Assembly (NCBI GenBank): GCA_020439745.1
Contig: JAGQSC010000015.1
Span: forward strand, 186,001 to 250,000
From: Acidobacteriota bacterium
GTDB taxonomy: Bacteria > Acidobacteriota > Holophagae > Acanthopleuribacterales > Acanthopleuribacteraceae
Direction of reading: 5' to 3'
Length of the DNA: 64,000 bases
Shown here piece after piece: positions 20,709 through 37,119 of the stretch; within the stretch, counting starts at the first letter, position 1, and each line of letters opens with the position of its first letter. The notes under the pieces were generated by a model. It was given only the letters and a program-made list of their open reading frames with translations. It did not search any database and was not told the origin of the DNA. Both the position numbers and the translations under genes were made by a program.

Positions 20709-21836
20709 TTAAGTGTACCTAATCTTTGGGTTGCGGTCCGAAGCTGAGAATTCAGCCTCCAACAAACCCGCGCCACGTTCAATCATCTCTTTCAACTCTT
20801 CTTGGTTGGATGACATGTTGAGCGCAACTTCTAATGTGATTTGTTTCTTGAAATAGGCCGTTGCGAGCGCTTGGTTGAACGTCTGCATGCCGTGACGCAT
20901 CTGGCCTGTTTGCATGGTTGAATAGATCTGGTGAATCTTGTCTTCGCGAATCAAGTTCCGCACCGCTGAATTAGGGATGAGTACTTCCATAATCAACACG
21001 CGGCCTCTACCGCTGGCCCTGGGTAACAGCGTTTGACACATGATGGCTTCCAGAGCCAAGCTCAATTGGGCCCGCACTTGAGCTTGCTGGTGGCCGGGAA
21101 ACGCGTCGATCAAACGGTTGATCGTTTCGGGTGCGGAGTTTGTATGCAGCGTCGCTAAGGTCAAGTGGCCCGTTTCAGCAATGGTGATTGCCGTTTCCAT
21201 GGTCTCCAAATCACGCATTTCACCCACCAGCACCACATCAGGGTCTTGGCGTAGGGCAGAACGCAAGGCAGCGGCAAACGAATGGGTATCTGCGTGGATC
21301 TCGCGTTGATTCACCAGGGCTTTTTTGTGAGAGTGCAAATATTCCACCGGATCTTCGATGGTGATGATATGCAGATGCTTTTCAGAATTGATCTTGTCGA
21401 GCATCGCGGCCAATGTGGTGGATTTCCCTGAACCCGTAGGGCCAGTCACCAACACCAGACCTCGCGGCTTCTCACATATCTTCTCAACGACGGCAGGCAA
21501 CCCCAATTCCCGCATGCTGGGTATGACGTGGGGAATGGAACGGAACGCGCCACCAATGGCACCTCTCTGATTATAGACGTTGGCACGAAATCGGGAGAGG
21601 CCTTTAACACCAAAGGAGAAGTCAATCTCAAGATCTTCTTCGAGTCGGTGTTTCTGTGCATCGGTTAGTACCGAATAGCACAGCTGCTTGGTTTCGCTGG
21701 GCGTAAGGGGCGGTAGTTTGAGAGGAATCAATCGACCATCCACCCTTATCTGAGGAGGCGAGTTGGTCGTGATGTGAAGATCTGAACCACCTTGTTCCAC
21801 CATGGTCTTTAGCAATTGCGACAGGGTTATCGACAT
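20709..21836 (-). CDS. pilT: Type IV pilus retraction ATPase PilT
   Basis: 375 residues, a typical PilT. The N-terminal PAS-like domain contains GGSDLHITTNSPPQIRVDGR. Walker A is VTGPTGSGKSTTLAAMLD, the Asp box is IITIEDPVEYLH, Walker B is DPDVVLVGEMRD, and the His box is TGHLTLATLHTN. The PilT hallmark needed for retraction appears as AVRNLIRE (usual AIRNLIRE), followed by YSTMQTGQMRHGMQTFNQAL. Its presence argues for a retractile T4P rather than a pure type II secretion system. It lies 10 bases after pilB. Confidence 0.95.
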   Translation of the reverse strand: MSITLSQLLKTMVEQGGSDLHITTNSPPQIRVDGRLIPLKLPPLTPSETKQLCYSVLTDAQKHRLEEDLEIDFSFGVKGLSRFRANVYNQRGAIGGAFRSIPHVIPSMRELGLPAVVEKICEKPRGLVLVTGPTGSGKSTTLAAMLDKINSEKHLHIITIEDPVEYLHSHKKALVNQREIHADTHSFAAALRSALRQDPDVVLVGEMRDLETMETAITIAETGHLTLATLHTNSAPETINRLIDAFPGHQQAQVRAQLSLALEAIMCQTLLPRASGRGRVLIMEVLIPNSAVRNLIREDKIHQIYSTMQTGQMRHGMQTFNQALATAYFKKQITLEVALNMSSNQEELKEMIERGAGLLEAEFSASDRNPKIRYT

Positions 21837-21846
21837 GTCCGCTCCC

Positions 21847-23562
21847 TCATAGCACGGTCTCTTTTACGACCTCTTCGATCGTTGTTTGACCAAGCATGAT
21901 CTTCGAGATACCACTTCGTCTCAGCGTAACCATGCCATCTTCAATAGCTTGCTCGCGGAGTTCCACCGAGTTGGCTCCTGTGAGAATCAATTCCCTTAAC
22001 GGGTCGGATACTTCCATCACTTCAAAAAGACCCACACGGCCTTTACATCCCGTTTGGTTGCAAGTGGGACAGCCTTGGCCTTCGAATATCTCAACAGCAT
22101 CTGCTTCGTCATCACTAAACCCCACATCCGTTAGAGCCTTGCGTGGCAAGCTGATCACTTGTCGACATTCCTTACACACTCGGCGGACCAGACGCTGAGC
22201 GCAGATGAGATGGACTGATGTGGCAACCAGGAAGGGTTCGATACCCATGTTCATCAAACGGTTGATGGTGCTGGGGGCATCGTTTGTATGAAGTGTACTC
22301 AATACTAAGTGGCCCGTGAGACTGGCCTTGATGGCAATTTCGGCGGTCTCGAAATCACGAATCTCTCCCACCAAAACGATATTGGGATCCTGGCGTAGAA
22401 ACGATCGAAGGGCTGCGGCAAAATTAAGCCCAATCTGATCTTTCATCTGCACCTGATTTATACCCGCCATATTGAATTCGACCGGGTCTTCGGCGGTCAT
22501 GATATTGGTAGTCGGAGTGTTTAATTGCTGGATCGCACTATACAGGGTGTTTGTCTTGCCACTGCCCGTGGGGCCCGTGACCAGAACCATGCCCCAAGGG
22601 CGATGGATGGCACGAGTGAACTTATCCAATGATTCGCGCTCAAAACCCAGCTTTGTCATATCCAACATCAGCTTGTCTGAATCGAGTAAGCGCATCACGA
22701 TTTTTTCGCCGAACAGGCAAGGCAGCACGGACACGCGATAGTCCAACTCTTTTCGCCGCCCATCCAAATTCATCTTGAGCTTGATGCGCCCGTCTTGAGG
22801 CAATCGTTTTTCTGAAATATCCAGCTTCGACATGATCTTGACGCGGCTAATGATGGCATCTCGCATACGCAATGGTGGCGTCATTTGCTCGTGTAGTAGT
22901 CCGTCGATTCGGTATCTAACTCGGAACTCTTTTTCGTACGGTTCGATGTGAATATCGCTGGCACCCTTGCGCACTGCATCCGTAAGAATGATGTTCACAA
23001 GCTTGACCACAGGTGCATCTTCTGAAGACGATTCGAGGGTGTTGACGTCCACATCGGCATCTTCCTCAATCACCTCGAGATCCGACGCATCTTCTTCGAA
23101 CTCAATGTCATCCATGACTTTCTTAAGTTCAAGAGCCGTTGTCGAGCCGTAGTACTTATCAATGGCCTCTCGCAGTGCCAGTTCACTGGTAACCACTGGC
23201 TCTATGTTGTAGCCGGTCATGAACTTGATATCGTCCATGGCGAACACATTGGAGGGGTCGGTCATGGCCAGCGTCAAAGTGGCCCCGGTTCGGCTGATCG
23301 GCAGCACTTGATACTTTTGCGCGACGTCGGCTGGAATGAGTTTGATAATCTCGCGATCGATTTCAAACACCGATAAGTTAATAGCTGGCACACCATATTG
23401 CTGGCTGAGGAATTGGGTAATCTCGTCCTCTTTGACATAACCCAATTTGATCAATGTGTAACCCAGTCGACCACCGTGTTCGTTCTGGACGGATATAGCC
23501 TCAGTAAGCTGTTCCTTGCTGATGAGCTTGGAACTAACGAGGAGCTCGCCTAACTTGCTCAC
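21847..23562 (-). CDS. pilB: Type IV pilus extension ATPase PilB with MshEN-type N-domain
   Basis: 571 residues. Residues 3-55 hold two 24-residue MshEN motifs (KLGxxLx10LxxxIxxQ and RLGxxLx10IxxxLxxQ) separated by exactly five residues; this signature binds c-di-GMP in known homologues. The ATPase core has Walker A GPTGSGKTNTLYSAIQ, Walker B NIVLVGEIRD and a His box LVLSTLHTND. A four-cysteine zinc site (VCKECRQ and CPTCNQTGCKGRVG) sits near residues 460-505. PilB drives pilus extension at the inner membrane. It starts the pilBTCSR block after a 182-base gap that contains a possible promoter. Confidence 0.95.
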   Translation of the reverse strand: MSKLGELLVSSKLISKEQLTEAISVQNEHGGRLGYTLIKLGYVKEDEITQFLSQQYGVPAINLSVFEIDREIIKLIPADVAQKYQVLPISRTGATLTLAMTDPSNVFAMDDIKFMTGYNIEPVVTSELALREAIDKYYGSTTALELKKVMDDIEFEEDASDLEVIEEDADVDVNTLESSSEDAPVVKLVNIILTDAVRKGASDIHIEPYEKEFRVRYRIDGLLHEQMTPPLRMRDAIISRVKIMSKLDISEKRLPQDGRIKLKMNLDGRRKELDYRVSVLPCLFGEKIVMRLLDSDKLMLDMTKLGFERESLDKFTRAIHRPWGMVLVTGPTGSGKTNTLYSAIQQLNTPTTNIMTAEDPVEFNMAGINQVQMKDQIGLNFAAALRSFLRQDPNIVLVGEIRDFETAEIAIKASLTGHLVLSTLHTNDAPSTINRLMNMGIEPFLVATSVHLICAQRLVRRVCKECRQVISLPRKALTDVGFSDDEADAVEIFEGQGCPTCNQTGCKGRVGLFEVMEVSDPLRELILTGANSVELREQAIEDGMVTLRRSGISKIMLGQTTIEEVVKETVL

Positions 23563-23744: not shown

Positions 23745-24254
23745 TTACCAAACAAACTGTTTTCGGAGTGTGGTTCCCAGTCTTCTGATCAGATAATTCG
23801 CAAGCGGCTCCACGGGCATACAGACATGAGGCGCGCGCACAACGACATCGCATGCACGATACACAGGTCGTCTCTGTCTGTACAGATTTCTCAATCGCCA
23901 TGATTGAGAGAGGGGCCTTTCGTGACTTCGGGCCAAGCGCTGTTCAATCACGAACAGTGGTACGTCCAGAAAGACAGTCACAGCGTTTCGGAATAGCCAG
24001 ACTCTGGCGGAAGGATGAGTCAACGTTCCACCCCCCAAGGCAAGCAGTGCGCCCGCATCCACGCGCTTGAGCGCAGTCAATTCGATCTCTCGAAAAGCCA
24101 ACTCACCAAATCGCGCGAATATTTCGGCTATTTGCATCTTGGTGTCGCGTTCGATGACTTGATCCAAATCCACAAACCGCCGACCCATCTTTTGAGCGAG
24201 ATGTTTGCCGAGACTACTTTTGCCACACCCCATAAATCCGGCTAGTGCGATCAT
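23745..24254 (-). CDS. aroK: Shikimate kinase
   Basis: 169 residues. The P-loop is GFMGCGKSSLG (residues 6-16), the shikimate-binding Asp is in FVDLDQVIE, and the conserved arginine is in FREIE. GGGTL is the substrate-binding glycine loop, and the lid region is RPLSQSWRLRNLYRQRRPVY. It phosphorylates shikimate in aromatic amino acid synthesis. Its ATG follows directly after the accC stop with no gap, so translation is coupled. In gammaproteobacteria aroK lies right after pilMNOPQ; here it still belongs to the pil transcript but with five genes inserted between. Confidence 0.92.
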   Translation of the reverse strand: MIALAGFMGCGKSSLGKHLAQKMGRRFVDLDQVIERDTKMQIAEIFARFGELAFREIELTALKRVDAGALLALGGGTLTHPSARVWLFRNAVTVFLDVPLFVIEQRLARSHERPLSQSWRLRNLYRQRRPVYRACDVVVRAPHVCMPVEPLANYLIRRLGTTLRKQFVW

Positions 24255-25604
24255 CTACCAACTCACGCGATTGAGAAAGTCCTCCATGAAACGGGTTGAA
24301 AACTCTCCCTTCAAGAATTGAGGATCATCCAATATCTTGAGGTGTAGGGGAATACTTGTCGAGATTCCTTCGAGAACGGTCATACTCAACGCGCGCCTCA
24401 TCCTGGCGACCGCCTCTTGTCTGTCACCACCATGAACCATCACTTTTCCGACCATCGAGTCATAGGTTGGCGGAACGCGATAGCCGCCATAAGCAGCTGA
24501 GTCAATGCGGACACCGGGGCCCCCAGGGGGATGAAAGTGTTCGATCAAACCCGGTGAAGGCCTAAACGATTGAGGATCCTCTGCATTGATGCGGCATTCA
24601 ATAGCATGTCCCTGGAGCACAATGTCCTTTTGCTTCAGAGTCAACTCGCATCCCGAAGCGATCATGAGCTGCCATTTCACCAGGTCTACCCCAGTTACCA
24701 GTTCAGTAATCCCGTGCTCTACTTGGATACGCGTGTTCATTTCCATGAAATAGAAGGAACCGTCGTCATCCAAAAGGAACTCGATTGTGCCTGCGTTATT
24801 GTAGTTTGTTGCCTTAGCCGCCAGGACCGCCGCATCACCCATGGTTTTGCGCTGGGAAGACGTCAATGCGGGAGAGGGAGCCTCTTCAATAATCTTTTGG
24901 TGACGTCGTTGAATACTGCATTCTCTTTCACCGAGGTGAATCGCATGACCAAACTTGTCTCCGAGAATCTGCACTTCAATATGGCGTGGATTGGTCAGGT
25001 ACTTTTCGATGTATACCTCACCATTTCCGAAAGCAATTTCGGCCTCAGATTGGGCCGTTGCAATGGCATTTTCTAGCTCGTCTTCTGATCGGACGATTCG
25101 CATGCCGCGTCCTCCGCCACCTGCACTGGCTTTGACAATCACGGGCATACCAATTTTCTTCGCTACTTTGACCGCAGTTTCGAAATCGCTAACGGGTCCG
25201 TCAGAGCCAGGCAGGACAGGCACTCCCGCCTCCATCATGACTTTTCGGGCCTGGGCCTTGTCTCCCATCATTCTTACTGTTTGCGCCGAAGGGCCCACGA
25301 AACACAAGTTGCAGGACTCCGCGACCTCAATAAAATGCGCATTTTCCGACAAAAACCCGTATCCCGGATGAATCGCTTCTGCTCCAGTGATTTCAGCAGC
25401 CGAAATAATCGCAGGTATATTCAAATAGCTCTGAGACGAGGGCGCGGGGCCAATACAGACATCTTCATCCGCAAAACGGCGATGGAGCGCATATCGATCA
25501 GCTTCTGAATAAACAGCAACTGTCTTGATACCCAAATCACGGCAAGCCCAAATCACGCGAAGCGCAATCTCACCGCGGTTGGCAATCAGTACTTTTTCAA
25601 ACAT
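24255..25604 (-). CDS. accC: Acetyl-CoA carboxylase, biotin carboxylase subunit
   Basis: 449 residues, the typical AccC size. The N-terminal domain starts [17 protein letters not shown] and includes [13 protein letters not shown]. The ATP-grasp domain has [32 protein letters not shown] and the catalytic stretch [18 protein letters not shown]. It carboxylates biotin on AccB in the first step of fatty-acid synthesis. It starts 2 bases after accB. One point differs from the common motif: QVEHGITE replaces QVEHPVTE. Carboxyltransferase subunits AccA and AccD are not in the window. Confidence 0.96.
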
Positions 25605-25606
25605 GA

Positions 25607-26047
25607 TCAGCTAGTCTTAATCGCAAAAAGTTTCTGTCCAAACTCAACCGGCTGCGCGTTTTCCACAAGACAACTGACAACCTCACCCGCTACATCGCAT
25701 TGAATCTCGTTCATCAGTTTCATGGCTTCGATGATGCACAATGTCTGACCTGAACTGACACGCGATCCGACGCGTACAAACGCATCGGCCTTCGGATTCG
25801 GCGCGGAATAGTAGGTACCCACGATGGGCGATGTGACGTAATGCAACGACTCATCTTCAACGGGCTCGGGAGCGGCGGCCACTTGAATGGCGGCCTGGGG
25901 TGCTGGCGAGGCTCCAGACGTCACTTCTACACTGCCTGCACGCCCACGGACCAACTTAAACTCAAAGCCCTCTCGTTTGATCTTCAAACGATCGAGATCA
26001 CTTTTCGAGAAAAGCTCGATCAACTCCCTGATCTCTTGAAAATCCAT
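25607..26047 (-). CDS. accB: Biotin carboxyl carrier protein of acetyl-CoA carboxylase
   Basis: 146 residues. An N-terminal helix ([20 protein letters not shown]) leads to an Ala/Pro-rich linker at about 45-65. The biotinyl domain follows, with [15 protein letters not shown] and the biotinylation site EAMKLMNE (Lys110). It carries the carboxyl group between AccC and the carboxyltransferase. It is co-transcribed with accC (2-base gap). A 73-base gap separates it from the roadblock gene upstream; the gap shows no clear terminator, so the pil and acc genes may share a transcript. Confidence 0.95.
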
Positions 26048-30420: not shown

Positions 30421-33054
30421 TTAGTACTTAACAATTCTTGGCGTGATGAAGATCAACAACTCTTGGTTCTGAAGTTGTTTGTTATCACTACCAAACAGAT
30501 GCTTGACAATAGGTATCCTGCGCAAGCCTGGAATACCCACTGAAGAATCCTGTTCACTGAGCACAAAGATACCGCCAATCACCGCGGTTCCCCCGTCCTT
30601 CACCAGCACGCGAGTTTCGGCCCGTCTCACATTGATGACGGGGTTACCAAGAACCGTTCTGGTGAAGTCTGCTTCAGACTTATCCACCACCAAATCCATG
30701 ATAATCGTCTTCTCGTTCGTCACCTGCGGTGTTACTTCGAGTTCCAACACGGCATCAATGTAACGCACGGTAATCGTTCCCCGTTGCTCAGTCTGTGTCG
30801 GTATTCTTTGTCCATTCTTAATGACCGCTGTCTTATTGTTTTGAGTGATGACTTTCGGCGCCGATATGATCTGGCCGTTGCCCTCGCTCTCTAACATCTG
30901 TAAAGAAATATCCAATTGGAATGTATTGAGAAAATTCCCGAAACTCAGGCCAATGCCTGAAGGCGATTCGGAAATCACCGGGAAGTTCACGGCGTACCCA
31001 CCGGCGAGACCGCCAGGTGAGTTACGACCAAAGTTTGGGCCACCTACGCCAATACGGTTAGGGAAGGTGACGCCAGTGTCGGTACCTGATTCAGGACTGT
31101 ATTCAGCGTCGAGGCCCCATTGAATACCCAATTCTCGAATAAAACGCTTGGTGGTTTCCACGATTCGCGCTTCAATGGCGACCTGAGGTACCCGCGTATC
31201 CAACCTGCGTATCAAGGTCCGGATGGCCACCATACGCTTGGGAATATCCTCGATAATCAGGGTATTCGTCCGTTCGTCGAAAAGGATGGTCCCTCTCGGC
31301 GAAAGATACTGTTCAATGATCGGCACCACTTCCTTCACCTTGGCATAACTCAAGGGGAAAGTCACCGTTTCGGGCGGAACGCTCAACTCGCGTTCCAGCA
31401 AGAGGGCGCGACGCTGCTCCGCCTCATCCTTGAACTTGGCAGTCGTGGCCACGCGAAGCACGCCATTTTCAAATTCCCAGTCCAGGTTCGCATTTCGCAG
31501 AATGATATCCATTGCCTGGTCCCAGGGAATGTTGCGGAAGCTATAGGTTGCTTTTAGTTTCTGTACCGATGGATCCACATACAAATTGATACCAACCTGG
31601 TCCGCCAAGAAACGCAGTAAATCGACCACGTTGGCGTCTTTGACATCGATTTTCTGGATCTCAAATCCACGATACTTGCCTTGACCGCCATCGATTCGTT
31701 CGTAGCTATCATCCTGCATAGACTCGACTTCATCGAAAAGAGACTGTTGTTGCGGTTCCGCAAAATCTTCCTGCATCGACCTGGCTTCACCGAGACTCAT
31801 TGAATCTGCGATGGCGCGGTCTGTAATTTCAATGGGCTTCACGGAGCCATGCGTTCTTTTCACCGTCTTCATTTGGTCGTAGAACGAGTCAGACGAACCG
31901 AATTCAGCCAATTCCTGGTCAATATCTGAGGCCAGGTCGAAAGCGGGTTTGGGTGTGACTTCCTCAGGTTCCATGGAGGCGGCAGCGATCTCGGGAGTCG
32001 CAGCGATCTCCACCGTCTCGACGGGCACCTCATAGGTTTCCATGGGTCCATCAGAATTCGCCGCTACAGACTCTTCGCCAACCGTGGTTTCCGCGGGAAG
32101 ATCCATCGCCTCCGGCTCCTCGGCAACGATTTCTGCCACTTCAATGACCATCGTTGGGGCTTCTTCGACCGTCTCGTTTCCATTGGATACGTTGGCGTCA
32201 ACGGCAAGCGTAGGCATTCGGCCTATGTCACCGGGTTGTGAAGCGTACCATACTCGAGCTCCGTACTCCGTAGCCTCGAATTGAATGTTCACGCCTTCCA
32301 CTGCCAAGTCCAGCACCATGCGAGCGATGGGCTCTGGGTGCACCTGGAATTGCCGCACGCGGACACCTTCCACGAGCTGTGAAGACACGTTGAGATCGCC
32401 TTCTAAAAGCGAACTGCTGACACCCTTCAGATTCAACGCATAGCGAGGGGGGTTATCCAGACGAAAATCGCTCAGTGCGACGTCACCGCTCACATAGACG
32501 TCTACGAAACCGGACTGATCATCGCCTGTAACCGTCACTTGATGCAATTTTTGCAGACCTTCAACCCCACGAAGTGACTGGGGTTCAACCGCTGCCATTT
32601 CTGTGGACGCCCCTTGTGACTCAGTTTCCATCGGCGTGGCGATCACCATGTCAGTATGGTCGCCGCCCTGTTCGAGAAACAAAACAAGCTGCCCTGGGTC
32701 ACTGTCATACAAGTCATATTGAACGCCAGGCCTAAAAGTAAAATGCACGCTGACGCCACGATGAGAGTCGGGATCCAACGGGACTTGACGCACCTGTTCG
32801 ACCAACTCGACATCCAGTTGATCAAAGTCATACAGACTGATCACGCCCGGGAAGTCCAGGGTCAGAACACCCTCAGCGGGATTGATCGCGAAAAACTGAA
32901 GTTTCTCCGCACCTTCATACTTGATCACGATGGAGGCCTTGTCGCCGTAGGTCATCGTCTTGACTTCGCGAATCGTTACTTCAGCGCTCAAGAAGGCACA
33001 AGCAAGTGCGCAGGCCAACAATCCATTCATCTTCGAAATCTTCTTGCTCCTCAT
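30421..33054 (-). CDS. pilQ: Type IV pilus secretin PilQ
   Basis: 877 residues. A signal peptide (KMNGLLACALACAFLSA) leads to two AMIN domains (about 25-130 and 170-285), which bind peptidoglycan in homologues. A Glu-rich linker covers about 290-430. A short STN/N0-like domain has FEIQKIDVKDANVVDLLRFL and YSFRNIPWDQAMDIILRN, then the N1 domain with TNTLIIEDIPKRMVAIRTLI. The secretin pore covers about 640-875, with VPQVAIEARIVETTKRFIRE and GGTAVIGGIFVLSEQD, ending LLIFITPRIVKY. It forms the outer-membrane channel for the pilus. It is 3 bases after pilP. Confidence 0.95.
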   Translation of the reverse strand: MRSKKISKMNGLLACALACAFLSAEVTIREVKTMTYGDKASIVIKYEGAEKLQFFAINPAEGVLTLDFPGVISLYDFDQLDVELVEQVRQVPLDPDSHRGVSVHFTFRPGVQYDLYDSDPGQLVLFLEQGGDHTDMVIATPMETESQGASTEMAAVEPQSLRGVEGLQKLHQVTVTGDDQSGFVDVYVSGDVALSDFRLDNPPRYALNLKGVSSSLLEGDLNVSSQLVEGVRVRQFQVHPEPIARMVLDLAVEGVNIQFEATEYGARVWYASQPGDIGRMPTLAVDANVSNGNETVEEAPTMVIEVAEIVAEEPEAMDLPAETTVGEESVAANSDGPMETYEVPVETVEIAATPEIAAASMEPEEVTPKPAFDLASDIDQELAEFGSSDSFYDQMKTVKRTHGSVKPIEITDRAIADSMSLGEARSMQEDFAEPQQQSLFDEVESMQDDSYERIDGGQGKYRGFEIQKIDVKDANVVDLLRFLADQVGINLYVDPSVQKLKATYSFRNIPWDQAMDIILRNANLDWEFENGVLRVATTAKFKDEAEQRRALLLERELSVPPETVTFPLSYAKVKEVVPIIEQYLSPRGTILFDERTNTLIIEDIPKRMVAIRTLIRRLDTRVPQVAIEARIVETTKRFIRELGIQWGLDAEYSPESGTDTGVTFPNRIGVGGPNFGRNSPGGLAGGYAVNFPVISESPSGIGLSFGNFLNTFQLDISLQMLESEGNGQIISAPKVITQNNKTAVIKNGQRIPTQTEQRGTITVRYIDAVLELEVTPQVTNEKTIIMDLVVDKSEADFTRTVLGNPVINVRRAETRVLVKDGGTAVIGGIFVLSEQDSSVGIPGLRRIPIVKHLFGSDNKQLQNQELLIFITPRIVKY

Positions 33055-33057
33055 AAC

Positions 33058-33585
33058 TTACTCCTCACCACGGTGAAGTTCCAACAAGATCTCACGGTGG
33101 GCCAACTCTTGTGAATCGTCGTCAATGTACTGTTTAAACAAGACAGTCTTGTCGTCAATGTTGATGAGGTCGCCGTCCTGAAACTTGTCTCCAGTGCGGA
33201 ACCACTTATACTGACCGTTCTCACCACCCACCTCAAAAATGGCCCAATAACCCGTTCTCGCTTCAAGATAGATACCTTTGAGCACGAGTTCGTGAATCAT
33301 TTCTTGAAATCGATTGGGATCGACATCACGAGGTCTGTTCTTACGAGCTTCCTCTTGCTCTTTTGCGATGTCAAACGGCGACTTGAAGGGATCTCGCGGT
33401 TTTTCCTCATTCTCATCCCTGCGTGGACTGTATGTCACACCACCAGTAATAGGCTCTTCAGTGGCTTCGCCTTCGGCAGCCACATCCGTCGCAGGCGGCG
33501 CCTCTTCCGTTTGCGCAGCCGCGGGAAGCACTAAAAAACCGAGCAGCATGAGCCAGATGAACAAGGAAGTTTTCTTAAACATCAT
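33058..33585 (-). CDS. pilP: Pilus assembly protein PilP
   Basis: 175 residues. An N-terminal signal peptide (LFIWLMLLGFLVLPAAAQ) has no lipobox Cys, unlike Pseudomonas PilP, so it is probably a soluble periplasmic protein or uncleaved. Residues ~30-60 are acidic and disordered. The family mark RDPFKSPFD is present near residue 65. The C-terminal HR/beta domain has LVLKGIYLEARTGYWAIFEV and TGDKFQDGDLINI. PilP links the PilNO inner-membrane complex to the PilQ secretin. It follows pilO by 9 bases and precedes pilQ. Confidence 0.85.
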   Translation of the reverse strand: MMFKKTSLFIWLMLLGFLVLPAAAQTEEAPPATDVAAEGEATEEPITGGVTYSPRRDENEEKPRDPFKSPFDIAKEQEEARKNRPRDVDPNRFQEMIHELVLKGIYLEARTGYWAIFEVGGENGQYKWFRTGDKFQDGDLINIDDKTVLFKQYIDDDSQELAHREILLELHRGEE

Positions 33586-33594
33586 TTCCCCCCA

Positions 33595-34224
33595 TCACCG
33601 CTTTCGCTTCTTCTTGGCATTCGGGTCAATACCTTGGCGTTCCATTTTCTTGGCCTCAACCTGCTTCTTGAGCTCTTCTTCGGTCGGCTCTTGGTATGTA
33701 AAGATCGAGAGTAGAAAGGCCGAGTCTAGTGAATACGCAGGGTTTTCCTTGTTTTTTGATACATGCAAACCCTTCACGTTGATGATGCGAGGATAATTGC
33801 TCAACTTGGCGAAAAAATTACCTAAATCGTGGTAGTTTCCGCGCACAAAAATGGTAAATGGGTGCTCGAGAATCACATCGTCGCGAACGGGATTGTTGGC
33901 CGAGAATGTCTCAACTTCCAAGCCATGCTCATTCGCGTATCTGCGGATGTCCTGGAGAAACTTGGGCTTGTTGACTTCGACCGGCAAGATCTTTTTCAAT
34001 CGTTCGAGTTGCGCCTTGAGGTGATTCATCTCCTCTTCAAGCGTGGCTGCATACTTCTGGATCGCTTTTGCTTCTGCTATTTGCAGATCCAGCTCTTGAA
34101 TATCCTTGTTCAGTTTCTCGATCCTGGCATGCGTATCTTTGAAAAACACCAACTCGCCAAGGACAATGACTATCAAAACGATTGCGACCCCGACGCCAAA
34201 CTGCTGAATGCGCGTAAGTTTCAT
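33595..34224 (-). CDS. pilO: Pilus assembly protein PilO
   Basis: 209 residues. One transmembrane helix near residues 9-28 (FGVGVAIVLIVIVLGELVFF), a coiled coil of ~30-85 (IEKLNKDIQELDLQIAEAK to LERLKKILPVEVNKPKFLQD), and a C-terminal ferredoxin-like domain with FTIFVRGNYHDLGNFFAKL and RIINVKGLHV. PilO pairs with PilN in the inner membrane and aligns the pilus machine. The ATG overlaps the pilN stop by 4 bases (ATGA). The C-terminal tail ends with KKKRKR, an unusually basic end. Confidence 0.92.
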   Translation of the reverse strand: MKLTRIQQFGVGVAIVLIVIVLGELVFFKDTHARIEKLNKDIQELDLQIAEAKAIQKYAATLEEEMNHLKAQLERLKKILPVEVNKPKFLQDIRRYANEHGLEVETFSANNPVRDDVILEHPFTIFVRGNYHDLGNFFAKLSNYPRIINVKGLHVSKNKENPAYSLDSAFLLSIFTYQEPTEEELKKQVEAKKMERQGIDPNAKKKRKR

Positions 34225-34910
34225 GGCGATCCCTCCTGGCCCACTTTCTTCTCGGCCGCGGCCTTCTCTCCGCCGCTTGTCGTCTTGAAGAAGATCGTAA
34301 ACAGAAATTCGCCCTGCACATCACCTTTTTCCTGTTCAATGACCGTGTTTAAGGAACCATCGGTGTAGCGAGGAATGGCAAACAATCGATTGGCAAGGGT
34401 ACTGGCTGCATCGATGGTTTTCGAATAGCCCGTGATCTTAAACATATTTGGCGCCCCGGGATTTGATCCGGGGTTAAACACTGCCTGTCCAGGACCCGGC
34501 TTTTCCACCAAACGCTTGTCGTAACCTTGCTCAATCGTGGCTAAATAGATCGAGCTCGGTGTATTGTTGAACACATCTTCCAAGAGCTTTACGGGCCCTT
34601 GTCGTCGGTCACGAAGCTGACTGATCTTCTGGATTTTCTCGTTCAAAAGCTCCTTTTGAACCTCGTAGTCCAGCTGCAAGTCCTTCCACTTCTCAACGGC
34701 TTTGTACTCTTTTTCTTTATTTGTTTTGGTCGTCTGCAATGCCGTTCGTTCGTTATTCAACATCGTTCGGCGGACCATAAAGACGATCAATGCCAGGGCC
34801 ACAAAAGCGATCAAGACAATATTTTCTTGAAGCTCGGAATACTGGGCTGTTGATTTCGCCGCTTTTGGCGCGGACGCCTTGCGTTCTGCAATAAGGTTAA
34901 TGCGAATCAT
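34221..34910 (-). CDS. pilN: Pilus assembly protein PilN
   Basis: 229 residues. The extreme N-terminus MIRINLIAER matches the conserved PilN motif that binds PilM. One transmembrane helix is at about 30-46 (IVLIAFVALALIVFMV), a coiled coil follows (TNKEKEYKAVEKWKDLQLDY), and the C-terminal domain carries LEDVFNNTPSSIYLATIEQG and MFKITGYSKTIDAASTLAN. It forms a heterodimer with PilO. It starts 1 base after the pilM stop. Confidence 0.92.
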   Translation of the reverse strand: MIRINLIAERKASAPKAAKSTAQYSELQENIVLIAFVALALIVFMVRRTMLNNERTALQTTKTNKEKEYKAVEKWKDLQLDYEVQKELLNEKIQKISQLRDRRQGPVKLLEDVFNNTPSSIYLATIEQGYDKRLVEKPGPGQAVFNPGSNPGAPNMFKITGYSKTIDAASTLANRLFAIPRYTDGSLNTVIEQEKGDVQGEFLFTIFFKTTSGGEKAAAEKKVGQEGSP

Positions 34911-34911
34911 G

Positions 34912-35979
34912 TCATTTGTCTCCCGGCTTACGCATGGCCAGACCGACCGCGATAGAACAACTAGCCCTCAAGTCTTGAATGGTTTGAGGATTGAATTGCT
35001 TGTCGCTGATACTGACGTTTTGAAAAGGGTTAAGCATTTCCACGGGTGCTTCAAATCGTTCCGAGAGATAGGTGTCCAGATTCAGGATGCGTGAACCGCC
35101 GCCACTCAGGAAAATGCGGTTGATCCGATCTGCCGAGGTCGTCGCCTTGAAAAAATCAAAGGTTTTCTGAACCTCAACACCTAAATCGCCAGTGACACTT
35201 TTTAGAATGGGTGCGACGCGTTCAAAACTAACACCCGCCGCTGATTCTCCGCGTTTCAACATCTCCGCAGTATCGTAATCAACCCCCAGCTCTTTCTGAA
35301 TCGCATCGGTATAGAGGTTGCCACCGATCGAGATGTCCCGCCAGAAGATGGATGTCCCACCTTGCAGAATATTGATGTTCATGACCGAAGCACCGATATT
35401 GACCAGAGCGGTCACTTGCAACTCCGACAACTCATAATTCTCAGTGAGTGAGTTTTGCAATGCAAACGAATCCACGTCCACGACGACAGGGTTCTTGCCC
35501 GCCTGCTGAACCACACTCACATACTCAGAGACCTTTTCTTTTTTGGCGGCGACCAAGAGAACATCCATGTTCCCGTCACCACGATCCACATCATTGAGTA
35601 TTTGATAGTCTAAATGCACGTCATCAATATCAAATGGGATATAACTCTCTGCTTCCCACATGATCGACTCTGACAGCTCGTCATCGGACATATAAGCCAT
35701 GGTGATCTTTTTAATGATCACGGAGTGCCCCGATACGGCAATAGCTACATCCGACGTTTTGATCTTGCTTTCATTGAAGAGCCGCACAATCGCATCGACC
35801 ACCATGGTCGAGTCCATGATCGATCCGTCGACAATGGCTTCAGGCGACAATGGCGCCACGCCTAAGTTCATCAACTTCCAACTGCGCCCCGTCTTCGAAA
35901 GGGGTTTCAATTCAACAAGCTTGACAGAACTGGAACCGATATCTAACCCCACCAAGCCCTTGGTCTTTCCAAAAAGCAC
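34912..35979 (-). CDS. pilM: Pilus assembly ATPase-like protein PilM
   Basis: 355 residues from a GTG start that has an aaaggggg ribosome binding site upstream. The actin/FtsA-like fold is shown by GLVGLDIGSSSVKLVELKPL near the N-terminus (phosphate 1), TALVNIGASVMNINILQGG (phosphate 2) and IFLSGGGSRILNLDTYLSER (adenosine motif). Internal segments MWEAESYIPFDIDDVHLDYQ and QNSLTENYELSE match PilM. It is the cytoplasmic ring protein that binds the PilN N-terminus. It is the first gene of the pilMNOPQ block; the 354-base upstream region holds several operator-like repeats. Confidence 0.95.
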   Translation of the reverse strand: MLFGKTKGLVGLDIGSSSVKLVELKPLSKTGRSWKLMNLGVAPLSPEAIVDGSIMDSTMVVDAIVRLFNESKIKTSDVAIAVSGHSVIIKKITMAYMSDDELSESIMWEAESYIPFDIDDVHLDYQILNDVDRGDGNMDVLLVAAKKEKVSEYVSVVQQAGKNPVVVDVDSFALQNSLTENYELSELQVTALVNIGASVMNINILQGGTSIFWRDISIGGNLYTDAIQKELGVDYDTAEMLKRGESAAGVSFERVAPILKSVTGDLGVEVQKTFDFFKATTSADRINRIFLSGGGSRILNLDTYLSERFEAPVEMLNPFQNVSISDKQFNPQTIQDLRASCSIAVGLAMRKPGDK

Positions 35980-36057
35980 TTCGGCCCCCTTTCATAGTTT
36001 CAATGGCCTTTACAGTCGATACTGTCCGAATTTTATCTAAAAGCTAACACCTTAATT

Positions 36058-36088
36058 ATTTAATAGTCAAGCGATAAAACTATTAAAT
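36058..36088. promoter_or_regulatory. AT-rich 10-bp inverted repeat upstream of pilM
   Basis: atttaatagt (36058-36067) is repeated in reverse as actattaaat (36079-36088), with an 11-base gap; a nested gcgat/atcgc pair (36071-36075 and 36090-36094) overlaps it. On the minus strand a TTGACT (36070-36065), a possible -35 element of pilM, lies inside it. No good -10 sits 17 bp away. It may be an operator. Confidence 0.4.
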
Positions 36089-36126
36089 GATCGCACAATG
36101 ATAGTTTAATTCGAGGAGATATTTCA

Positions 36127-36148
36127 ACTTTCCCAGGATACTTTCCCA
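36127..36148. repeat. Tandem 9-bp direct repeat in the pilM upstream region
   Basis: actttccca occurs at 36127-36135 and 36140-36148, a 13-base period. Tandem half-sites at a set spacing often mark activator binding. The function is unknown. It sits between the CRP-type palindrome and pilM. Confidence 0.4.
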
Positions 36149-36229
36149 CGCGTAGACTTTGTTTTGCAGACCCATGGGTCAATAAGTGTGGTTGTGCATT
36201 GGCTGATAGCACCGCAATCAGGGGGTTTA

Positions 36230-36245
36230 TGTGATCGAAATCACA
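36230..36245. promoter_or_regulatory. Perfect CRP-type palindrome upstream of pilM
   Basis: TGTGA-tcgaaa-TCACA matches the E. coli CRP consensus half-sites and 6-base spacer exactly; the flanking a and t extend the palindrome to 18 bp. It is about 250 bases upstream of the pilM start and 88 bases past the end of the phosphatase gene. The rest of the 354-base gap shows no gene. A CRP/FNR-family regulator is not in the window. Regulation of pilus genes by CRP-type factors is known elsewhere. Confidence 0.55.
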
Positions 36246-36333
36246 TCGGTGGATTATCGTGATGGCTCATTCGTACACTATCTCATTGTGGAGCAATCAT
36301 ACTAAGGTCAGGCTTGGGGTTTTGCCAGTTTGG

Positions 36334-37119
36334 TTAACGTTCAGAAGGGGCGAATTCACCGACGCGGATAAGTGTCACTGTGATGTTGTCGTCACCGCCT
36401 TTTTCTTTGGCGGCCTCAATGAGTTGATGATTCAAGTCGTCCAACGCGCCTCGTGCTCCGGTTCGGACGATCGCTTCGATCTCGTTGTCAGCCAACATGG
36501 AGTTCAATCCATCTGAGCACAACAACAAGACATCGGTTGCATAAAGATCCATTTCAAGCGTATCAATACGGATGTCCGCACCACTACCCAGAGCTTGGGT
36601 AATCACATTGCGAAACGGGTGATTTCGCGCATGTTCGAGGGTGATAAACCCCTGTTTCAACTGCTCGTTGACCCAACTGTGATCGGAGGTCAGTGGTTTT
36701 AGTTCGTTGTTGCGATACAGGTACGCACGCGAATCGCCCACATGCGCGATACAGCACTTGCCGCGGATAATCAGGGCCGCCACAATGGTCGTACCCATAC
36801 CGCGGCATTCATTGTAGTCTCGAGTCGCTTTGCGAATCTTTTCATTGGCGTTATGAATGGCGAACTTGAGTTTGTTGGCCATCAACGAAATTTTGGGGTC
36901 GTAGTTGTCGGGCCAAGTCCAGCCCTCATCAAATCGAGCGGCTTGGATCACATCTTCAATTTCTTCGACCGCAAGGCGACTGGCAACCTCGCCGGCTGCG
37001 TGCCCGCCCATGCCATCGGCCACCACGAAAAGGCCCATCTCAGAGTTTGAACAAAAATTGTCTTCGTTGATCCGGCGCTTATTGCCGACGTCGGTACTTA
37101 CGAAGGCCTCATAGTTCAC
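36334..37119 (-). CDS. PP2C-type serine/threonine phosphatase
   Basis: 261 residues from a GTG that overlaps the upstream stop (GTGA). All PP2C motifs are seen: STDVGNKRRINEDNF, FVVADGMGGHAAGE (metal Asp), MGTTIVAALI, CIAHVGDSRAYLY, DVLLLCSDGLNSMLAD and the closing GGDDNITVTLIRVG. It needs two metal ions and removes phosphate from Ser/Thr (family knowledge). No Hanks-type kinase is in the window. It is translationally coupled to the J-domain gene. Its 3' end is close to the pilM regulatory region. Confidence 0.93.
   Translation of the reverse strand: MNYEAFVSTDVGNKRRINEDNFCSNSEMGLFVVADGMGGHAAGEVASRLAVEEIEDVIQAARFDEGWTWPDNYDPKISLMANKLKFAIHNANEKIRKATRDYNECRGMGTTIVAALIIRGKCCIAHVGDSRAYLYRNNELKPLTSDHSWVNEQLKQGFITLEHARNHPFRNVITQALGSGADIRIDTLEMDLYATDVLLLCSDGLNSMLADNEIEAIVRTGARGALDDLNHQLIEAAKEKGGDDNITVTLIRVGEFAPSER

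Follow-up and report, generated by a model that had tools for sequence, protein, structure and literature searches.

A probable CRP-type operator upstream of the type IV pilus genes pilMNOPQ in a genus of Acanthopleuribacteraceae

The non-coding gap upstream of pilM contains an exact CRP-type palindrome that is also present upstream of pilM in a sister species, and pilus production in this genus is probably under CRP control. Judging from the sequence, the palindrome may serve as an operator linking pilMNOPQ to CRP, with a proximal promoter, P1, in front of the genes and, most likely, a second, distal one, P2, that CRP would activate. We tentatively give this reading a probability of about 0.45. 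In the proposed mechanism, a CRP protein (C6 CRP), putatively bound to cAMP, would occupy the operator at 36245-36230. Placed at about -41.5, it would recruit RNA polymerase to P2 in the manner of a class II activator. Transcription from P2 would start near 36196, and the leader of the resulting longer transcript would measure about 217 nt, while the P1 start near 36034 looks CRP-independent. We infer that CRP binds, that its ligand is cAMP, that its effect is activating and not repressing, and that P2 exists. A more specific proposal is that a genus-specific CRP-cAMP operator adds a CRP-activated second promoter to a constitutive one at pilMNOPQ, that pilus assembly follows cAMP, and that this wiring was gained in the genus. 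We consider it rather doubtful. It counts against the main reading that the exact pilM site is limited to the genus although the regulator is found in all seven family genomes.

Coordinates refer to the window, that is, the whole 64,000-nucleotide stretch of DNA analysed. It comes from a 5.1-Mb genome assembled into 65 contigs (G000), whose PilM is 95% identical to that of MAG OFTM365, 82% to that of Sulfidibacter corallicola and 78% to that of Acanthopleuribacter pedis, the nearest named relatives. Judging by these names, the genome is a member of the Acanthopleuribacteraceae (Acidobacteriota). The interval 35980-36333 coincides exactly with the 354-bp non-coding gap that separates pilM from a PP2C phosphatase gene; the two genes are on the minus strand. 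It contains, or is flanked by, the following features.

30421-35979, minus strand: pilMNOPQ, at the head of a more extensive run of type IV pilus genes
34912-35979, minus strand: pilM, GTG start, PilM_2 E 3e-76, head of pilMNOPQ
36041-36046, minus strand: P1 -10 TAGCTT; TG at 36049-36048 makes an extended -10; predicted start about 36034
36055-36091, no strand assigned: inverted repeat ATTTAATAGT / ACTATTAAAT over the P1 -35, perfect over 10 bp in the window
36065-36070, minus strand: P1 -35 TTGACT, from the TTGAC-N19-TAnnnT alignment
36074-36110, minus strand: dyad ATTAAACTAT-N17-ATAGTTTTAT, directly upstream of the P1 -35, 9/10 paired
36127-36148, no strand assigned: tandem repeat ACTTTCCCA-N4-ACTTTCCCA, copies 36127-36135 and 36140-36148, 9 bp, period 13
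36203-36211, minus strand: putative P2 extended -10 TGC-TATCAG, hexamer 36208-36203; start about 36196, CRP centre at -41.5
36230-36245, minus strand: CRP-type operator TGTGATTTCGATCACA, centre 36237.5, exact TGTGA-N6-TCACA, 10/10 letters
36334-37119, minus strand: PP2C-family phosphatase gene, PP2C E 3.4e-16, upstream neighbour of pilM

The identity of the pilus genes rests on Pfam matches for PilM (the value listed above), PilO (PilO, E 1e-25) and PilQ (Secretin, E 3e-44). The positions of pilN and pilP, for which Pfam gave no match, are assigned from gene order alone. Further downstream on the same strand, T2SSE ATPase matches lie at about 20910-23025, and PilC-, PilS- and PilR-like genes can be recognised when the translations are read by eye. 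Judging by their translations, aroK-, accC- and accB-like genes are located within the pilus run as well (23745-26047), in the section that separates the pilQ side from the pilB-like ATPase. The PP2C gene is found upstream of pilM in all six other family members examined; no match to it was obtained at this position in the 15 extra-family loci among the 21 loci searched.

The earlier note had described an exact TGTGA-N6-TCACA palindrome in the gap, far from pilM, and both observations hold. On the plus strand the site (36230-36245) reads TGTGATCGAAATCACA, and its arms, read directly, extend to ATGTGAT-N4-ATCACAT. It lies 88 bp past the PP2C stop codon, and 250 bp separate it from the pilM GTG (position -266). 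The competence sites of Vibrio are of the CRP-S type, whereas the site at the acidobacterial pilM is of the perfect type. Only one of 2000 dinucleotide shuffles of the gap produced an exact site. The next-best CRP-like match in the gap, at -229, has three mismatches. The window as a whole shows no enrichment for near-sites (4 with at most one mismatch against 2.9 expected), so the case for the palindrome rests on comparison between genomes. The sister species used for this purpose (L020/G001) is the one other genome of the same genus that was returned. It carries an exact TGTGA-N6-TCACA, TGTGAGCGCTATCACA, at -270 from the GTG, compared with -266 in the window.

Two promoters may be considered in relation to this site. 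P1 reads TTGACT-N18-TAGCTT in the window. The corresponding pattern, TTGAC-N19-TAnnnT with TG before the -10, begins 91-100 bp upstream of pilM in six of the seven family members; in the seventh (L042) the alignment shows the same core, one base shorter. Counting both strands, the window has two occurrences of the pattern, one of which is P1. Family members keep P1 whether or not they have the CRP site. P1 is predicted to be a separate, CRP-independent-looking sigma-70-type core promoter of pilM. Within the predicted P1 leader there is an ACAGT-N4-ACTGT hairpin (36012-36025, minus strand), which is partly kept in the sister species. The folding energy of the pilM leader is no better than that of shuffled sequences, and the idea of a riboswitch or another kind of RNA element in front of pilM was rejected, the sole Rfam match at E values up to 5 having scored 17 bits (E 2.1).

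The centre of the CRP site lies at -203 from the P1 start in the window and at -198 in the sister species, which is too far for ordinary class I or class II contact. A CAP site at -61.5 defines class I and one at -41.5 class II (PMC7192510). CRP might instead act on P1 from about -200 by bending or looping the DNA, perhaps with the help of a factor at the AT-rich dyad next to the -35. This would agree with P1 being the only promoter kept across the family and with the presence of a conserved dyad between the CRP site and P1. There is also a precedent, since the Vfr footprint at fimU of Pseudomonas aeruginosa extends from -142 to -102, where AlgR is needed as well (PMC8787478). However, the two spacings, 203 and 198, are half a helical turn apart, and no second CRP-like site lies near P1 in the gap, the next best being the three-mismatch one at -229. 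We therefore regard looping as unlikely. The earlier note had offered looping or a start site further upstream as explanations of the distance. The spacing differs by 5 bp between the species when measured to P1 and by only 1 bp when measured to the putative P2 -10, so that the upstream start fits somewhat better than looping; neither is proven.

P2 was sought by scanning bases 20 to 94 from the CRP centre for -10 hexamers, with a score threshold of 5. In the window, TGC-TATCAG at base 30 is the only hexamer that scores at least 5 in the direction of pilM. The sister species has TATGAT at base 29, which would place CRP at -40.5; five bases further on, at base 34, TCGAAT scores equally. On the opposite strands, the score at the P2 spacing is 3. 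A score as good as that of P2 is reached at about 8% of the gap positions in the window and about 10% in the sister. A general class II architecture in the group was also considered, using 39 oriented CRP sites drawn from the 38 of 52 sites located outside ORFs, and was rejected: two of the 39 score at least 5 at class II spacing, both of them at pilM, and this number is equalled or exceeded at 22 of 106 offsets. When the pilM sites are excluded, none of the 37 remaining oriented sites has such a signal (0.79 expected), which lowers our confidence in P2. We tentatively put P2 forward as a proposal for the pilM promoter, not as a group-wide rule.

The position of the palindrome, 88 bp past the PP2C stop, would also allow a different role, in which CRP would act as a repressor or road-block limiting PP2C read-through into pilM. 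The consensus scan of the PP2C-pilM interval detected no intrinsic terminator or similar site after the PP2C gene, and regulators of the CRP family can be repressors as well as activators. A road-block would have no need for the spacing to a -10-like hexamer that is kept to within 1 bp in the two species, and we consider this role improbable.

In the seven family genomes, exact TGTGA-N6-TCACA was found 47 times, compared with 5 for a reversed control pattern; in all ten genomes searched the numbers are 52 and 5. No exact site was found in G010 or G007, which are among the ten. The 52 exact sites comprise 31 intergenic ones, 7 at most 120 bp from an ORF start and 14 inside ORFs. By comparison, 2600 random positions in the same loci fell 429 times in intergenic regions, 274 times near an ORF start and 1897 times inside ORFs. 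These placements are approximate, as the ORFs were called by a longest-ORF gene caller. By these counts, the motif behaves as an operator genome-wide in the group. In the window genome, one exact site is located 84 bp upstream of the lpxC ORF (L155 3001-3016; G000 C51:46638-46653). CRP-type sites also occur upstream of a large sensor-like gene in both the window genome and the sister (L151 and L162, 3001-3016 in each). Reg_prop and GGDEF domains in the product of the former hint at a link between CRP and cyclic-di-GMP. The two adjoining sensor proteins match at only 22%, so that a shared CRP target is discounted here. Near pilB/pilT-type ATPase genes, no exact site was seen in 20 loci, taken from 23 matches in the two species; one 9/10 CRP-like site is found inside such a matched gene (L224).

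The conservation of the pilM site may also reflect nothing but descent, the palindrome being functionless, arisen by chance and common to two close species. The exact copy at pilM is indeed present in only two species, and some exact sites of the window genome are inside ORFs, for example those for Pyr_redox_2 (L150) and for Rieske and ferric-reductase domains (L156). Against this, the window and sister sequences align poorly from the PP2C stop to about 130 bp before pilM, to the extent that MAFFT leaves the two sites unpaired. All ten specified letters are nevertheless kept and most of the spacer letters have changed, which supports a real site. The sister genome, of about 6.2 Mb, has only three exact sites, the one at pilM among them. 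As a control, the lpxC site of the window genome is not kept in the sister species, where the best match within 350 bp has three mismatches (G004 has a 9/10 match); common ancestry is therefore not enough to maintain such sites. A chance palindrome is accordingly a rather improbable explanation.

Beyond the genus, an exact site upstream of pilM is absent from the other five family members (L021, L022, L023, L024 and L042). The best substitutes are AGTGAGACGCGTCACA at -387 in L022 (G004), with 9/10 letters (P 0.007 against shuffles), and a 9/10 match at -603, near the PP2C end, in L021 (P 0.012). L023 and L024 reach 8/10 letters (P 0.12 and 0.20, respectively) and L042 reaches 7/10 (P 0.62). 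A wider test covered up to 600 bp of DNA upstream of pilM at 77 of 80 acidobacterial loci. Only one of these regions has an exact site, that of the sister species. In these regions TGTGA was not enriched over permuted palindromes, and phylum-wide conservation at pilM was rejected: the exact count of 1 compares with a mean of 0.07, and the count of 3 with at most one mismatch compares with a mean of 0.97 (rank 4 of 30). Since the exact copy is confined to two species of the same genus among those compared, the CRP site at pilM is a genus-level feature.

According to the earlier note, a genome without a CRP-family regulator would refute its reading. This is not the case here: two proteins of the window genome contain HTH_Crp_2 (PF13545) above the cut-off, one of them with a CRP-type helix. 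The latter (C6:277203-277871, 223 aa) combines cNMP_binding (PF00027) with HTH_Crp_2, both above the cut-off, and contains the RSA motif stretch FGEMALLDEEPRSATV and the recognition helix SRETVSR. Compared with solved structures, its best matches are Crp/Fnr-family proteins (E about 5e-37), and it also matches catabolite gene activator protein 1i5z (E 1.8e-28) and Vfr 7ff8 (E 1.3e-26). An orthologue is present in all seven family genomes, with 64-87% identity in the six others, and SRETVSR is invariant in all seven. In E. coli CRP, Arg180, Glu181 and Arg185 read TGTGA, and the RSA motif accompanies cAMP as ligand. From these E. coli residues (SRETV-R), we take SRETVSR to be a CRP-type recognition helix. 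The C6 protein resembles E. coli CRP in its nucleotide-binding domain, RSA motif and SRETV-R helix, and class II spacing of the pilM site is possible. Guanylate_cyc domains (PF00211, class III cyclase), the product of which may be cAMP or cGMP, are found in all seven family genomes, and four are above the cut-off in the window genome. The second HTH_Crp_2 protein, a CRP/FNR paralogue (C51:137224-137793), is a very improbable owner of the site, because TSTETAIR, the sequence of its helix, does not include the Arg present in the CRP-type SRETVSR. Taken together, the conserved site, the matching regulator and the behaviour of the motif in ten genomes give the CRP-type reading of the earlier note good support at the level of sequence, and the C6 CRP probably binds the pilM site and matters there.

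Control of type IV pili by CRP is already known from Pseudomonas (PMC8787478), Synechocystis (PMC2633013, PMC7690835) and Vibrio competence (PMC3380833). The pilM CRP site is probably a lineage-limited instance, in Acidobacteriota, of an arrangement known from Proteobacteria and cyanobacteria. The consensus of the E. coli CRP regulons, TGTGA-N6-TCACA, is identical to the pilM site (PMC2633013). Unlike in the E. coli regulons, the target here is an acidobacterial type IV pilus operon, and class II spacing is not general in the group. In Synechocystis PCC 6803, SyCRP1 is required for pilus biogenesis, and type IV pilus operons have putative CRP sites at -245 and -346 relative to their first codon; in the cyanobacterial study a TAN3T -10 box follows the CRP sites at a distance of about 22 bp (PMC2633013). 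Both the distant upstream palindrome and the geometry of the -10 spacing are similar to the palindrome and the putative P2 at pilM. However, the Synechocystis targets are slr1667-1668 and slr2015-2018, not pilMNOPQ (PMC2633013), and we liken the regulators without claiming orthology. Analogously, Vfr of P. aeruginosa, a cAMP-CRP-family protein, directly activates pilus genes via an upstream site, but its targets are the fimU operon and algZ, together with AlgR (PMC8787478); the term pilMNOPQ is absent from the main text of that paper. In the model for Vibrio cholerae, the competence genes require cAMP and CRP, and pilM is induced along with them. There, however, TfoX is needed, and the dependence on CRP was shown for pilA and comEA, apparently not for pilM (PMC3380833).

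In the open-access literature we found, among the matches listed, no report of CRP control of type IV pili in Acidobacteriota, and the main text of the family genome paper (PMC8841776) does not mention pilus, pili, twitching or Crp. If correct, the proposed control would provide a testable second-messenger input for pilus production in the Acanthopleuribacteraceae, a family that includes animal-associated members (PMC8841776). It would also mean that a CRP regulon can be followed by sequence comparison in a little-studied group.

The gap contains two further repeats described in the earlier note, and both are present: a 9-bp tandem direct repeat with a 13-base period (36127-36148) and a 10-bp AT-rich inverted repeat overlapping TTGACT (36070-36065, minus strand). 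The proposal that at least three factors could act here is not supported by the comparison with relatives. Among 1000 Markov copies of the gap, 2.6% contain a 9-bp direct repeat with a period no longer than 25, and none exists in the gaps of the six relatives, so the tandem repeat was rejected as a conserved operator. Perfect 10-bp inverted repeats with a gap of at most 20 were seen in 1% of 300 Markov copies. The sister species has not kept the right arm of the inverted repeat in the window, and this repeat therefore probably results from the upstream dyad combined with an AT-rich promoter. In a shifted register it may represent one further operator: the dyad at 36074-36110 is 10/10 paired in the sister (L164 5497-5533), with both arms kept and the middle changed. 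This dyad is a better candidate than the inverted repeat for a second operator or UP-type element. At about the same position, L021 and L023, which belong to two other genera, have different dyads of the AAAACGTT-A-AACGTTTT type. These near-perfect AAAACGTTAAACGTTTT-type dyads, with one change in L021, are located about 125-145 bp upstream of pilM, upstream of the -35, and are possibly the operator of another regulator.
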